From: an uncultured Sutterella sp.
Lineage (GTDB): Bacteria; Pseudomonadota; Gammaproteobacteria; Burkholderiales; Burkholderiaceae_F
Direction of reading: 5' to 3'
NCBI GenBank assembly: GCA_949282745.1
Contig: CASDQM010000003.1
Location: 1-48,712 of the forward strand
Length of the DNA stretch: 48,712 nt
Of the stretch, positions 34,791 through 42,749 are shown in pieces. The first letter of the stretch is position 1. Every line of letters begins with the position of its first letter. The notes below the pieces were generated by a model that saw nothing but the letters and a program-made list of their open reading frames with translations, had not been told where the DNA came from and did no database searches. Position numbers and translations under genes: made by a program.

Positions 34791-35263
34791 CCTGGACGCA
34801 AAAAAAAACGGGTGAGCCGCGAGCGACCCACCCGATCCAAGGAGACCCGGAAGCGGTCGGACTTCTCTGTCCGCCGCGCCGCTACAACCCGACCCCTCAG
34901 GTTCCATCCTTGCGGCGCACCGTTTCCATGTCTCGTATCTTATCGCAAATGCGAATCGTTTTCAATACCAAGAATGAAAATTTTTCGCATCTGGCGCAAC
35001 CGATCGATGCTCCGGAGACGACTTTTCTGCAAAAACCTCCTTTTCTGCAAACGAATGCTTCATGCCCTCCCCTTCGGCTCGCACCCGGAACCGAAGCGAA
35101 AACCTAATCCAAACCACCTATTTTCAAGGTTTTTTCCTTCCTTTCCTTGACGAGAGGACCTGAAATCCGTAGAGTTCTCTTCTGTGCAATAGCGGTTCTT
35201 CTGCAAAAGAGAGCCGAAACGAAAACTTAGGGTGCCGCGAGGCACTTTCTCTACGGAGTCAAC
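34791..35263 (+). promoter_or_regulatory. Leader and control region of leuA, possible attenuator
   Basis: The region is AT-rich after 34950. A short frame at 34974-35150 (58 residues) holds six leucines within 21 residues (MLRRRLFCKNLLFCKRMLHAL). Its 3' part overlaps two hairpins: CTTCGG/CCGAAG (about 35072-35096) and AAAACCT (35099-35105) with AGGTTTT (35127-35133), the latter followed by TTTCC. This resembles a leucine-leader attenuation layout, but no leucine codon run and no good ribosome site are present. TTCTGCAAA occurs three times (near 35027, 35043, 35196). Otherwise no gene is seen. Confidence 0.4.
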
Positions 35264-38021
<2,758 letters not shown>

Positions 38022-38036
38022 CGAAGGAGATACGAC

Positions 38037-39446
38037 ATGGGCAAGACACTCTACGAAAAGGTCTACGAAGCGCACGTCGTGCGCCGGGTCGAAGGAGAAC
38101 TTCCGCTTCTCTACATCGACCGTCATCTCGTGCACGAAGTGACGTCGCCGCAGGCCTTTGCGGGCCTGCGCGCCGCGGGCCGTCCGATGCGCCGGCCCGA
38201 CCTCACGCTCGCGACGATGGACCACGACATTTCGACGCAGGTGCAGACGCTTGAGGCCTGCTCGCCCCAAGCCTACGCGCAGGTGACGACCCTCATGAAG
38301 AACTGCGGGGAGTTCGGCGTGACGCTCTACGGACTCGGCCATCCGCACCAGGGGATCGTGCACATCATCGGGCCCGAAACGGGCTTCACCCTCCCCGGCA
38401 CGACGCTCGTCTGCGGGGACTCCCACACGGCGACCCACGGCGCCTTCGGAGCGCTCGCCTTCGGGATCGGCACGTCGGAAGTCGAACACGTTCTCGCGAC
38501 CCAGACCCTGAAGCAAGGCAAGTTGAAGACCATGAACGTGAAGACGGTCGGAAAGCTCCCCAAGGGGCTCTCCGCCAAGGACCTCATCCTCGCGATCGCG
38601 GGCAAGCTCACGACCGCGGGCGGCACGGGCTACGCCATGGAATTCACGGGCGAAGCCGTGCGGGATCTCTCCATGGAAGGCCGCATGACGCTCTCCAACA
38701 TGGCGATTGAAGTGGGCGCCAAGGCGGGCATGATCGCTCCCGACGAGACGACCTTCGCCTATCTCAAGGGGCGCCAATTCTCGCCCAAGGGCGAAGATTG
38801 GGACCGCGCGGTCGAATACTGGAAGACCCTCCGCACGGACGAGGACGCCGTCTACGACAAGACCGTCGAAATCGACGTCTCGAACCTCGCCCCGCAGGTG
38901 ACCTGGGGGACGAACCCGGGCCAGGTGATGGGCGTTGACGAACGCGTGCCCGTCCCCGCCGACATGACGGATCCCGTCGAGCGTGCGGGCGCCGAAGCGG
39001 CGCTTCGCTACACGGAACTGAAGGCGGGCGAACCGATTCAGGGCACTCCGATCGACACGGTTTTCATCGGCTCCTGCACGAACGGGCGCATCGAAGACTT
39101 CCGTGCCGCGGCCGAAATCGTTCGGGGCCGCAAGGTGGCGCCGGGCGTGCGCGCTCTGGCCGTTCCGGGAAGCGGCGAAGTGAAGCGCCTCGCCGAAGAG
39201 GAAGGCCTGGACAAGGTCTTCAAGGAAGCGGGCTTTGAGTGGCGGCTTCCGGGCTGCTCCATGTGCCTTGCGATGAACGACGACAAGGCGGAACCCGGCT
39301 CGCGCGTCGCGTCGACTTCGAACCGCAACTTCGTCGGCCGTCAGGGACGCGGCAGCCGCACCCACCTCATGAGCCCCGCCATGGCGGCCGCGGCCGCCGT
39401 CACGGGCGTGATCACCGACGTACGCACTCTCTTGGGGGACAAGTAG
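38037..39446 (+). CDS. leuC: 3-isopropylmalate dehydratase large subunit
   Basis: This 469-residue aconitase-family subunit isomerises 2- to 3-isopropylmalate with LeuD. The [4Fe-4S]-binding cysteines appear in [15 protein letters not shown] and in [11 protein letters not shown]; substrate motifs include [27 protein letters not shown]. The C-terminus [20 protein letters not shown] is normal. The stop codon is TAG at 39444-39446, and the left end of the IscB element begins at this very codon, so the element may have supplied the stop. AAGGAG precedes the start. Length matches the family (about 466), so the gene appears intact despite the insertion. Confidence 0.97.
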
Positions 39447-39700
39447 TCAATAACCCCTGTCTAAAGACAGAGGCTTGATAGCCCTTGTGGCTTTCGAGCC
39501 TTGATTGACTAGCCCCAGGCCGCCGTAAGGCGGACTACGTTGGTTGGGAATGTATAGGCACCGCGGGATGTAGATCCTAGTCCCGCGCCCTGCGGCCGGC
39601 GGTTAAAAGCTCTGAGAGGTAGGAGCGGTGCCGTCGGTGAAAACCTCTTCCAACATTGGCGAAGGATCATTACCGGTCAATAGACCGCGAGGAAACTAAC
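39447..39700 (+). ncRNA. Candidate omega RNA (HEARO-type) of IscB
   Basis: The roughly 250 bases before iscB are rich in pairings and have no coding sense. They include CTGTC-TAAA-GACAG (39457-39470), a helix AGGCT/AGCCT (39471-39475, 39497-39501) enclosing AGCC/GGCT, CCGCC-GTAA-GGCGG (about 39522-39535), a long-range pair GGCACCGC (39557-39564) with GCGGTGCC (39625-39632), and GAGAGGT (39614-39620) with ACCTCTT (39643-39649). The last would form a pseudoknot-like crossing. Position directly upstream of iscB matches HEARO/omega RNAs. The guide would lie at its 5' end, possibly reading into the leuC 3' end. Confidence 0.7.
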
Positions 39701-40936
39701 TTGAGAGTATATGTTTTGAACAAACGAGGAGAACCGCTGATGCCTTGCTCTGCGGCCAAGGCGCGCATTCTGCTCAAAGAAAAGAAGGCGGTGGTGAAAC
39801 GACGAACGCCCTTCACCATTCAGCTTACGATCGCCACGGGTGAAACGACGCAGCCCGTGACCCTCGGCGTCAACGCAGGATACAAACACATCGGTCTTTC
39901 GGCCTCCACTGAGAAGGCCGAGCTCTATGCGTCTGAAATCGAACTTCGTCAGGACGTTTCCGAGCTTCTTGCGGCCCGCCGCGCTCTGCGAGGAGCCCGT
40001 CGATCCCGCAAGACCCGTCACCGCGCTCCGCAGTTCGACAACCGCAAGAGGGAAAAGGGATGGCTTGCGCCGTCCGTGGAGAACCGCATCGGCGCACATG
40101 TCTCTCGCGTTGAGGCGGTCCTGCGCATCCTGCCGGTCACGAAGATCGTCGTGGAAACGGCGTCCTTTGACGTGCAGCGTCTGAAGAATCCCGACGTTCA
40201 GGGTGTCGAGTACCAACAAGGCGAACAGCTCGGCTTCTGGAACGTCCGCGAATACGTTCTCTTCCGAGACGGACACGAGTGCCAACACTGCCACGGAAAG
40301 TCCAAGGACAAGGTTCTCAACGTACATCACATCGAGAGCCGACGCACGGGGGGCGACGCTCCCAACAATCTGATCACGCTCTGCGAGACGTGCCACAAGG
40401 CATTCCACCGCGGCGAGATCGAGTTGAAAGTGAAACGAGGTCGGTCGTTCCAGGCGGAAACCTTCATGGGTGTCATGCGTTGGACGTTCTTCGCGCGGCT
40501 GCAGGCGAGTCATCCCGAAATTGAGGTGCGAAACACCTACGGTTATCTCACGAAGGACACCCGTATCGCCAACAAAATTGAAAAATCTCACTGCGCGGAC
40601 GCCTTCTGCATTGCGGGAAACCTCAAAGCGAAGCGGCTCGGATACTACTTCTTCCAGAAGCAGACCCGTCGCCACAACCGACAGATCCACAAGCTCACGA
40701 TCCTCAAGGGCGGCGTTCGCAAACGCCATCAAACGCCTTACGAAATCAAAGGATTCCGTCTTTACGACAAGGTCCTTTATCGAGGCAAAGTGGCTTTCAT
40801 TTTCGGCCGTCGCTCTTCGGGGTACTTCGACATCCGAACGTTGGACGGAGAGCGGATTTCCGCCAGTGTTAGTTACAAAAAACTACGGCTCTTGGAAAAA
40901 CGTCGGACATTTTTGATTGAACTAAGACGCAACTAA
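39701..40936 (+). CDS. iscB: IscB-type RNA-guided nuclease with substituted RuvC-I Asp
   Basis: This 411-residue IscB protein starts at TTG 39701 with GAGGAAA upstream, giving MRVYVLNKRGEPLMPC, the family's usual start. Domains: PLMP (1-about 50), RuvC-I (VTLGVNAGYKHIGLS), Arg-rich bridge helix (LLAARRALRGARRSRKTRHR), RuvC-II with E152 (VVETASFD), HNH (zinc Cys pair from C194, catalytic H209-H210, NNLITLCETCHKAFH), RuvC-III (H297, D300) and a C-terminal target-recognition region. The RuvC-I catalytic Asp is replaced by N58 (AAC codon), so only HNH cutting is expected. IscB, ancestor of Cas9, uses an omega RNA guide. It sits within leuABCD on the coding strand, so leu transcription passes through it. 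Confidence 0.92.
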   Translation: MRVYVLNKRGEPLMPCSAAKARILLKEKKAVVKRRTPFTIQLTIATGETTQPVTLGVNAGYKHIGLSASTEKAELYASEIELRQDVSELLAARRALRGARRSRKTRHRAPQFDNRKREKGWLAPSVENRIGAHVSRVEAVLRILPVTKIVVETASFDVQRLKNPDVQGVEYQQGEQLGFWNVREYVLFRDGHECQHCHGKSKDKVLNVHHIESRRTGGDAPNNLITLCETCHKAFHRGEIELKVKRGRSFQAETFMGVMRWTFFARLQASHPEIEVRNTYGYLTKDTRIANKIEKSHCADAFCIAGNLKAKRLGYYFFQKQTRRHNRQIHKLTILKGGVRKRHQTPYEIKGFRLYDKVLYRGKVAFIFGRRSSGYFDIRTLDGERISASVSYKKLRLLEKRRTFLIELRRN

Positions 40937-40942
40937 CCATAC

Positions 40943-40989
40943 AAGGAGCGGCGCTTCCTCCCCTACATGAATGCAGGGGTTTCCGCGCC
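40943..40989 (+). promoter_or_regulatory. Element right-end hairpin with AAGGAG ahead of leuD
   Basis: AAGGAG (40943-40948) is followed at once by the compound right-end hairpin (40950-40989). The leuD start lies 10 bases after the hairpin. Without folding, no Shine-Dalgarno is near ATG 41000. With the hairpin formed, AAGGAG would be about 11 bases from it, a possible bridged ribosome site. Confidence 0.45.
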
Positions 40990-40999
40990 GAAATCATCT

Positions 41000-41611
41000 A
41001 TGAAAGCGCTCAAAACACACACCGGCATTGCGGCCCCCTTCGACGCCGCGAACGTCGACACGGACCAGATCATTCCGAAGCAGTTTCTCCTGGCGGTGGA
41101 CCGCAAGGGCTTCGGAAAGCACCTCTTTCACGAGCGCCGCTACCTCGACGCCGCGGAAACGAAGGAGAACCCCGATTTCGTGCTCAATCGGGAACCTTAT
41201 CGAAAGAGCTCGATCCTGGTTGCGCGAAGCAACTTCGGAAACGGGTCGTCCCGCGAACACGCGCCCTGGGCGCTCCTTGACTGGGGCGTGCGGGTCGTGA
41301 TCTGCGAGAGCTTCGGAGACATCTTCAAGAACAACGCCCTTGGAAACGGTCTCTTGACCGTGGAACTTCCCGAGGCGCAGATCTCCGAGATCTTCGACGC
41401 CCTCTACGTGCAACCGGGCATGACGATCACGGTGTCGCTCGAAACGATGACGGTCGAAGCGGCCGGGAAGACCTATCCCTTCACGCTCGACCCCTTCCGC
41501 CGTCGCTGCATCATGGAGGGGCTCGACGCGATTTCGCTCACCCTTGAGCACGAAGACGAAATCGCGGCCTTCGAAGCGAAACGCCCGAGCTGGGCGAACC
41601 GCAACGAGTAA
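41000..41611 (+). CDS. leuD: 3-isopropylmalate dehydratase small subunit
   Basis: This 203-residue swivel subunit pairs with LeuC. It begins MKALKTHTGIAAPFDAANVDTDQIIPKQFL, the standard LeuD start, and contains the substrate-binding loop SNFGNGSSREHAPWALLDWGVRVVI and SFGDIFKNNALGNGLL. An upstream in-frame ATG at 40967 would add 11 unconserved residues encoded by the element hairpin, so 41000 is preferred. The gene is separated from leuC by the IscB element and depends on readthrough or an internal promoter. A strong terminator follows, so it closes the operon. Confidence 0.95.
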   Translation: MKALKTHTGIAAPFDAANVDTDQIIPKQFLLAVDRKGFGKHLFHERRYLDAAETKENPDFVLNREPYRKSSILVARSNFGNGSSREHAPWALLDWGVRVVICESFGDIFKNNALGNGLLTVELPEAQISEIFDALYVQPGMTITVSLETMTVEAAGKTYPFTLDPFRRRCIMEGLDAISLTLEHEDEIAAFEAKRPSWANRNE

Positions 41612-41663
41612 GTCGCCCCCGGATCCTCCTCTTCTCGGGGCGGATCCGAGACTCCGAAAAGAC

Positions 41664-41700
41664 GAAACCCCGACCGGTTTGATTCCCGATCGGGGTTTTT
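41664..41700. terminator. Bidirectional terminator after leuD
   Basis: AACCCCGA (41666-41673) and TCGGGGTT (41690-41697) flanked by A- and T-runs, serving convergent leuD and the hydrolase gene. Confidence 0.85.
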
Positions 41701-41714
41701 GTCATGGCACGAAA

Positions 41715-42749
41715 TCAGGCGAGATAAGTGCGGTAGAACTTCTCGATCTCATCGAACGGAATGATGTCCTTTCGGTCGTAGAGGTCCGTGTGGATCGCCC
41801 CGGGAACAAGGAGAAGACGCTTGTTGTCGGCCTTCAACTTCGGGAAGATGTCCTTCGAGAAGTAGACCGAGTGGGCCTTCTCGCCGTGCACGAGCATGAC
41901 GGCGTTTCGGATTTCCTCGGGACGGCCGAGCAGCGTCGACATGACGAAGGGGAAGAACGAAGTGACGTTCCAGCCCGCGTTCGAGTTGAGCGAACGCGGA
42001 TGGTAGCCGCGCTTCGTCTTGTAGTAGTCGAAATAGTCCTTCACGAACCAGGGCGCATCGTCGGGGAGCTTCTCGGGCACGCCGCCCGCACGGGCCGGAG
42101 CGCCGTTCTTCACGTCGACCGTACGCTGCGCGTTCATCTTTTCGAGCATTTCCCAACGGCCGTTCGCGTCGATCGAGTCGAAGTAGCCGTTCCCCGTCGC
42201 ACGGCACATGTCGTACATGGTCGAGGTGACGGTCGCCTTGATGCGCGTGTCCATCATCGCGGCGCGAAGCGCAAAGCCGCCCCAGCCGCAGATGCCGCAG
42301 ATGCCGATTCTCTTCGGGTCGACGTCGTCGCGAAGCGACAGATAGTCGACGGCCGCGGAAAAGTCTTCCGCATTGATGTCGGGCGACGCGACGTTGCGCG
42401 CGACGCCGCCGCTCTCGCCCGTAAACGAGGGATCAAAGGCGACGGTGACGAAACCGCGAATCGCGAGTTCCTGGGCGTAAAGACCCGAAGACTGTTCCTT
42501 CACGGCGCCGAAGGGACCCGAGACGGCGATCGCGGGAAGTTTCCCCGTGAGGTTCTTCGGACGATAGAGGTCGGCGGCGAGCTCAATGCCGAAACGGTTC
42601 GTGAAGCGGACCTTTTCGTGCGAAACGCGGTCGTCAAGGGCAAAGGTCTTGTCCCAAACTTCGGCGGAGGCGGCCTTCGCGGCCGGAGCGTTAACGGTCA
42701 TGAGCGTGGCTCCCAAAACAGTGGTTCCCAAAAAAGTTCTTCTCTGCAT
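41715..42749 (-). CDS. Tat-exported alpha/beta hydrolase
   Basis: This 344-residue enzyme begins MQRRTFLGTTVLGATLMTVN, a twin-arginine signal. The body is an alpha/beta hydrolase of the dienelactone-hydrolase/acetyl-xylan-esterase type: NRFGIELAADLYRPKNL, AVSGPFGAVKEQSSGLYAQ, TVAFDPSFTGESGG and a nucleophile-elbow region RIGICGICGWGGFALRAA. A Cys rather than Ser seems to occupy the nucleophile place, as in dienelactone hydrolase. A late VPGAIHTDLYD could carry the catalytic His. GGAAGAACGCC before 42749 sets the start; a longer frame adds 13 residues ahead of the signal. A LysR gene lies divergently upstream. Substrate unknown. Confidence 0.85.
   Translation of the reverse strand: MQRRTFLGTTVLGATLMTVNAPAAKAASAEVWDKTFALDDRVSHEKVRFTNRFGIELAADLYRPKNLTGKLPAIAVSGPFGAVKEQSSGLYAQELAIRGFVTVAFDPSFTGESGGVARNVASPDINAEDFSAAVDYLSLRDDVDPKRIGICGICGWGGFALRAAMMDTRIKATVTSTMYDMCRATGNGYFDSIDANGRWEMLEKMNAQRTVDVKNGAPARAGGVPEKLPDDAPWFVKDYFDYYKTKRGYHPRSLNSNAGWNVTSFFPFVMSTLLGRPEEIRNAVMLVHGEKAHSVYFSKDIFPKLKADNKRLLLVPGAIHTDLYDRKDIIPFDEIEKFYRTYLA

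Follow-up and report, generated by a model that had tools for sequence, protein, structure and literature searches.

The closest described relatives of the locus reported here are the IscB/OMEGA elements, which are catalogued as HEARO RNA (RF02033) and belong to the ISC group of the IS200/IS605 transposons. They carry an omega RNA upstream of iscB, encode an RRXRR/RuvC-HNH protein and have hairpin ends, and they insert without target duplication, with the guide taken from the left flank and the target-adjacent motif (TAM) lying in the right flank. According to Weinberg 2009, HEARO elements reportedly integrate before ATGA or GTGA. The TAMs measured for IsrB proteins are NTGA, NTG and NTGG (PMC9581776), and phage T4 genes 38 and 25 are initiated from a Shine-Dalgarno (SD) sequence, a hairpin and an AUG in that order, where folding cuts the spacing from 22 to 5 nucleotides (nt) and from 27 to 11 nt (PMC3014915). 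We analysed a stretch of 48,712 nt from an uncultured Sutterella sp. (assembly GCA_949282745.1, contig CASDQM010000003.1, positions 1 to 48,712 of the forward strand), referred to as the window, which contains an element sharing all these IscB/OMEGA features between leuC and leuD of a leucine operon. An original prediction had placed an IscB/OMEGA element at this position on the strand of the operon, and this observation is confirmed by matches to RF02033 and NF040563 and by Pfam/NCBIfam gene calls.

The element was found to lie directly against the start codon of leuD, and its right end may supply the ribosome-binding site from which leuD is now translated. According to this reading, a non-autonomous IS200/IS605-type element with an omega RNA and iscB was inserted directly before the leuD start codon and would be carried on the operon transcript. 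The leuD gene would have lost the SD sequence located in the tail of leuC and would now be initiated from the AAGGAG of the element, whose distance from the AUG the right-end hairpin would reduce to about 9 nt. The insertion would in this way provide a portable split ribosome-binding site. The omega RNA would carry the leuC tail as its guide, and a guide of this kind would direct IscB to empty leuC/ATGRAA alleles such as that of a sister genome (slashes mark junctions throughout). With Asn at RuvC-I and an intact HNH motif, the window copy would either nick the target strand or be inactive, making no double-strand break. We give this reading, taken as a whole, a probability of about 60%.

The operon order is leuA, leuB, leuC, element and leuD, all on the + strand, with the following features.

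35264-36850, + strand: leuA (Pfam and NCBIfam)
about 36933-38021, + strand: leuB (Pfam and NCBIfam)
38037-39446, + strand: leuC (TIGR00170, 779 bits); the G of its TAG stop already belongs to the element, as base 1
39446-40999, + strand: the whole IscB/OMEGA (HEARO) element, 1,554 bp, GTCAA...ATCATCT
41000-41611, + strand: leuD (TIGR00171, 248 bits); its ATGAAA start doubles as the presumed target and TAM (ATG[A/G])
41674-41693, + strand: terminator-like hairpin after leuD (consensus scan)

The left boundary was placed at 39446, which is position 1 of the RF02033 model and where GTCAA fits the left ends of most other copies. The right boundary was placed where ATG[A/G] then follows in all 38 family copies with a recognised hairpin, and where the empty site of the relative G060 also puts it. 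These limits replace the earlier coordinates of 39444..40990, in which the element was thought to end about 10 bases ahead of the leuD ATG; its final base in fact abuts the ATG at 41000. The TAG stop codon of leuC is made up of TA from the host and G from the element. The window reads GGGGGACAAGTA/GTCAA...ATCATCT/ATGAAAGCG, and both reading frames are unbroken, in agreement with the prediction that both genes were left intact.

G060, the closest relative found, is 94.4% identical to the window in the nucleotide sequence of leuC and 92.4% in leuD (94% over both), with a low ratio of nonsynonymous to synonymous divergence in leuD (dN 0.026, dS 0.293; NG86). Its junction, GGGGGACAAGTAATGGAAGCG, contains no element, and the leuC TAA overlaps the leuD ATG by one base. 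Since the sister allele reads TAATG, the insertion split a one-base overlap, at TA/ATGGAA, and an ordinary intergenic insertion is ruled out. Comparison with G060 reveals a clean insertion without target duplication, with the guide side to the left and the TAM side to the right of the empty site. The G060 allele, seen in a single sister, may represent the pre-insertion state or a clean excision. All 29 other leuC-leuD junctions that were read (L033-L061, G060 included; 66 of the 67 family genomes have a LeuD match, and these loci are the best of them) are without the element, and their intergenic gaps of 2 to 161 bases are too short to hold it. The comparison of relatives that had been proposed with the original prediction therefore yields an empty-site allele, and the proposed search for further copies in the genome found none, the element being the only copy found in its own assembly (G000; 2.5 Mb, 92.5% complete).

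In a consensus scan with totals at chance level, neither a promoter nor a terminator that would isolate leuD was predicted on the + strand of the element, and the sole + strand terminator-like site within 34800-41800 was the one after leuD; the operon transcript would for this reason carry the element. A match to the ylbH family of Rfam at 41569-41705 was ignored as it falls below the cut-off, on the other strand, over the operon terminator region. Just ahead of the leuA start, positions 35232-35256 form a small hairpin (GTGCC-GCGA-GGCAC) followed by TTTCTCT; by eye, no leucine-rich leader peptide was seen upstream of leuA. The genome also has a second LeuD-like gene (G000:C25:56256-56813), 44% identical to leuD, and G060 has one too.

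The guide predicted from the IscB/IsrB layout is host sequence.

39426-39445, + strand: predicted guide, the 3' end of leuC, adjoining the 5' side of the scaffold

The empty site of G060 contains the same 20 guide bases with one mismatch, followed by ATGGAA. A 17-base leuC-tail pattern was searched with up to two mismatches in 12 genomes of the genus, and the G060 empty site was the only exact match. In its own genome the pattern occurs, with 1 mismatch, at the occupied site alone, and there the element stands in place of the TAM side. Four other genomes of the genus gave one match each, with 2 mismatches. The right-flank ATG[A/G] agrees with the measured IsrB TAMs and is a putative TAM for the window IscB.

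The right end consists of three parts that follow the iscB stop codon (40934-40936) and the bases CCATAC.

40943-40948, + strand: AAGGAG, an SD-like motif at the foot of the right-end hairpin
40949-40990, + strand: right-end hairpin, with a CGGCGC/GCGCCG outer stem and a CCCCU/AGGGG inner stem
40991-40999, + strand: 9-nt tail AAATCATCT between the hairpin and the leuD ATG at 41000

The hairpin has a predicted energy of -20.4 kcal/mol on its own and is also predicted in context, with an outer pair probability of 0.95; the 106-nt right-end stretch as a whole folds only slightly better than shuffled sequences (z -1.33). Duplex formation with the anti-SD sequence was calculated at -7.7 kcal/mol for the AAGGAG stretch compared to +0.1 for the 20 nt directly before the leuD ATG, and in the empty allele the leuD SD within the leuC tail reaches -8.4 kcal/mol. 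The spacing from SD to ATG is 51 nt in the linear sequence and collapses to 9 nt with the hairpin folded. By prediction, the window thus has the split-initiation layout of an SD, a stable helix and a collapsed spacing within the range of about 5-11 nt that was sought.

The leuD insertion is one case of a general pattern in the bacterial family. IscB and HEARO matches were sought in 67 family genomes and many, though not all, were fetched; the genomes are partly incomplete, and gene starts were judged from frames and models rather than by a gene caller. An order-wide search at an expectation value of 1e-60 gave matches in three of 399 genomes, all from the same family. Among the 41 fetched copies with the iscB C-terminus and enough downstream sequence (one more is cut by a contig end), the right-end hairpin was recognised in 38, and ATG[A/G] was present within 30 nt in every one of these although no condition was placed on the sequence that follows. 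The three without a recognised hairpin are a copy in G014, a distant one in G048 and the inner portion of a nested copy. A wider pattern that does require ATG[A/G] found 58 right ends, from which six false hits were dropped by hand to leave 52. An SD-like motif occurs in 45 of these 52, the copies being related, and was also found in Desulfovibrio, Thermotogota, two Eubacterium copies and the viral contig L122.

Insertions were then compared with gene starts. A frame of at least 80 codons begins at the ATG in 38 of the 45 right ends with an SD-like motif and in three of the seven without; two SD-bearing G011 ends found later are followed by short frames of 22 and 25 codons. We called a site start-like if it has a frame of 80 or more codons and an in-frame stop no more than 30 codons upstream in the left flank. 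Of the 52 right ends, 39 belong to insertions with both ends, and 22 of these 39 are start-like compared to 102 of 1,804 background ATG[A/G] sites in the flanks (5.7%; binomial p 7e-18), the 22 being divided between 21 of 33 insertions with an SD at the right end and one of six without. An SD was also found in the left flank of 13 of the 39 insertions as opposed to 8% of the background (p 6e-6). A scan of 40 downstream proteins gave NCBIfam matches of 1e-20 or better for 27. In 25 of these the best match starts at corresponding positions in protein and model, to within 15 residues; the two exceptions are a CopA-like and an UmuD-like protein. The genes downstream of family copies include lepB, lolC/E, serC, nrdG, ntrC, lplT, metC, mtnA, mfd and nikR. 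The co-orientation of the element with the leu operon needs no special reason, because the start codon itself serves as the ATG[A/G] target.

An IS605 element (TnpA and TnpB) in G011 helps to separate the hairpin from the SD motif. It starts with TTCAT/AGAAATTCCGCGAGGAAACCCGCG..., which matches the hairpin and tail of the IscB right end in reverse complement, and the identity between the two elements ends at the hairpin foot, which reads CTGAGAAAGGAGG in the IscB element and AAAATAAAAACAG in IS605. The IS605 element therefore shares the terminal hairpin and the TTCAT target but lacks AAAGGAGG (AAGGAG is absent), so that TnpA need not require the SD motif; the transposase, which presumably moves both elements, accounts for the hairpin but not for the SD. 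A role for the SD motif as a TnpA guide was considered since the G011 copies have an upstream AGAAA able to pair with the TTTCT of the cut site, but it is disfavoured by the IS605 element with the same end and no motif and by the window and G049 ends, which by eye lack that pairing. In G011, 19 of 24 IscB right ends are followed by frames of 80 or more codons, compared to three of nine IS605 ends (Fisher p 0.033). The right end of the window is similar in kind to the G011 ends and is 77-85% identical to stretches of G058 and G062. Its own genome has three Y1 transposase genes, and no second copy of this right end was found there. An IS605-type end without an SD in G062 (L182, G062:C4:267500-271000) is followed by a 664-codon frame that by eye resembles the inside of a molybdopterin oxidoreductase, and this copy seems to break its gene.

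The element holds the following RNA and coding parts.

39446-39673, + strand: HEARO/omega RNA scaffold (RF02033, 120.3 bits against a cut-off of 83; model positions 1-211, full length)
39701-40936, + strand: iscB, 411 amino acids, start TTG (NF040563 guided_IscB, 354.8 bits against a cut-off of 175)
39872-39874, + strand: codon 58, AAC (Asn), at the position of the RuvC-I catalytic Asp

The protein contains the PF14239 (RRXRR/RuvC) domain at 208 bits and an HNH domain at 33 bits. Its RuvC-I motif is LGVNAG, in which Asn 58 aligns with the Asp of LGIDPG in OgeuIscB; of the 19 IscBs aligned, the 18 others, some of them from other phyla, have Asp at this position, as does every fetched family copy covering the motif (the codon is GAT in L003 and L023). 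The RuvC catalytic set is accordingly incomplete, while the RuvC-II Glu, the RuvC-III His/Asp and the HNH residues are kept in a frame open over 411 codons, and H209, H210, N223, H232 and H236 of the HNH motif are invariant across the 19 aligned sequences. Loss of the RuvC-I Asp, as in Cas9 and IscB mutants, should leave an HNH nickase, and from its sequence the window IscB may be a natural nickase of this type. The change is not datable by dN/dS because dS to the two nearest IscBs is saturated, and Asn 58 could be recent decay or an assembly error. Three unusual arrangements were observed among other copies. In G011, a 757-codon IscB frame (L076, G011:C22:466516-472727) consists of residues 1-401 and then about 105-410 again, as in a duplicated or nested iscB. 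G062 has two tandem IscB elements with equal HEARO scores about 1.7 kb apart and with N runs beside their ends (L083, G062:C4:5598-12523). Finally, an IMG/VR viral contig (L121:1485-2442) carries a ROOL RNA, a tRNA and a HEARO RNA with iscB in a row, the three RNAs within 1 kb.

Several observations weigh against the proposed reading. No SD-like motif was seen where the Lachnoclostridium copy and the viral copies L120 and L121 end. Folding predictions over 37 distinct right ends are mixed: the SD-AUG spacing collapses to 7-17 nt in 13, the tail or the start region pairs with the SD in another 10, and 14 have no usable SD or stem. On average the SD is unpaired with a probability between 0.08 and 0.91, the window value being 0.69. 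Twelve SD-bearing representatives were read, and in 11 of them the motif is part of the iscB frame, so that selection on the protein could account for some of its conservation; only in the window does it follow the stop. By the criterion used, the leuD insertion does not count as start-like, since the leuC tail is open in the leuD frame for 69 codons. Some SD-bearing copies, including those of Eubacterium and Thermotogota, are not at evident gene starts, and two of the seven SD-less right ends precede recognisable ones (nikR and a repressor/antitoxin gene). The contrast between IscB and IS605 ends is small and loose, and two G062 IS605 copies outside the Fisher test both have frames of 80 or more codons, one of them apparently inside an oxidoreductase gene. 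As for the nuclease, Asn 58 rests on one assembly, and the loss of RuvC activity through the Asp-to-Asn change is assumed.

The first rival explanation, which we regard as unlikely, dispenses with a portable ribosome-binding site. The ATG[A/G] target would simply include many starts, insertions elsewhere having been lost by selection, and leuD expression would be weak or buffered by a paralogue. The occurrence of ATG[A/G] after the hairpin in all 38 copies fits this explanation, as do the NTGA, NTG and NTGG motifs of IsrBs, the second LeuD-like gene and the many right ends in which the SD is predicted to be buried. Against it stand the excess of start-like insertions over the 5.7% of background sites, the copies at the starts of lepB, lolC/E, nrdG and serC, genes that are expected to need expression, and the recurrence of the SD-like motif in copies of other phyla.

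The second, which we hold to be as probable as the first, is that leuD is not translated from AAGGAG across the hairpin. Translation would instead be coupled to iscB, re-initiate after it or begin at an in-frame ATG. This is favoured by several relatives in which the iscB stop lies in the hairpin, about 30 nt ahead of the ATG, and by the hairpin loop of the window, which contains an ATG (40967) that shares the leuD frame and would add 11 residues. Against it, in the window iscB stops at 40936, 63 nt ahead of the ATG, and AAGGAG is kept outside the iscB reading frame.

A third explanation, which appears improbable, concerns the protein: the RuvC-I Asn would be a step to domestication, giving an HNH-only nickase or a guided DNA-binding protein that occupies the leuC-leuD junction of empty alleles, rather than a mark of a decaying copy. 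RuvC-I alone is changed among the catalytic motifs examined, and the residues of RuvC-II, RuvC-III and HNH are kept in a frame open over 411 codons, which favours such a step. Yet the Asn variant was seen in no relative, and one codon in one genome is indistinguishable from recent decay or assembly error. It is very improbable that the insertion is adaptive by coupling the supply of omega RNA and IscB to leucine demand, since the shared strand and the absence of internal + strand promoter or terminator sites in the scan are set against an element family that precedes many unrelated genes, the lack by eye of a leucine-rich leader and the 29 junctions without the element; the original interpretation, which had proposed this link through carriage on the operon transcript, is supported in part, as to the kind of element, its clean insertion, its strand and the existence of an empty-site allele, but not as to leucine demand. 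The RuvC-I change, the family habit and the one-base overlap of the sister allele were absent from the original prediction.

The proposed reading can be extended, tentatively, to this family of IscB elements. They might be start-codon-landing transposons whose target and TAM, ATG[A/G], serves as the start of a gene and whose right end combines a transposase hairpin with a portable split ribosome-binding site that takes over translation of that gene, which would allow them to settle in essential operons and to use the leader of a gene as guide against empty alleles, in this case with an HNH-only nickase. If true, this would explain the harmless settling of an RNA-guided transposon in essential operons, as the target is the start codon and the end re-supplies initiation, and it would connect gene architecture with the TAM used by the IscB/IsrB group and add a host-sparing device to these elements. 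A natural IscB with a changed RuvC-I residue is also a candidate strand-specific nickase. Neither start-codon landing nor an SD in IscB elements is described in the open-access literature searched, which was available in part and lies outside the founding HEARO, ISC and OMEGA papers.

Compared with the IscB/OMEGA elements described so far, the element in the window differs in its RuvC-I Asn, in a site that is the TAATG overlap of two biosynthetic genes and in the SD-hairpin-AUG arrangement of its right end, which the partly available literature searched does not describe. IsrB is likewise RNA-guided with a TAM of the NTGA/NTGG type, and like IsrB the window IscB may nick one strand only; IsrB, however, has RuvC but no HNH, and the strand that it nicks is the non-target one (PMC9581776); the window IscB would be expected to nick the opposite strand because its HNH is kept and its RuvC-I changed. 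Stem-loops of the IS605 type are retained at the RNA level beside host lipoprotein genes in Borrelia, but they are located at gene 3' ends and without a transposon (PMC2775950). The IStrons also join a transposon to an RNA device that makes insertion harmless, as is proposed for the element in the window, although they self-splice from the RNA, whereas the device of this element would be a ribosome-binding site (PMC4227781). The arrangement in T4 genes 25 and 38 resembles the right end of the window in its SD, intervening hairpin and AUG and in a spacing restored by folding (predicted for the window); those are resident phage genes (PMC3014915), whereas in the window the end of a mobile element meets a host start codon across a linear distance of 51 nt.

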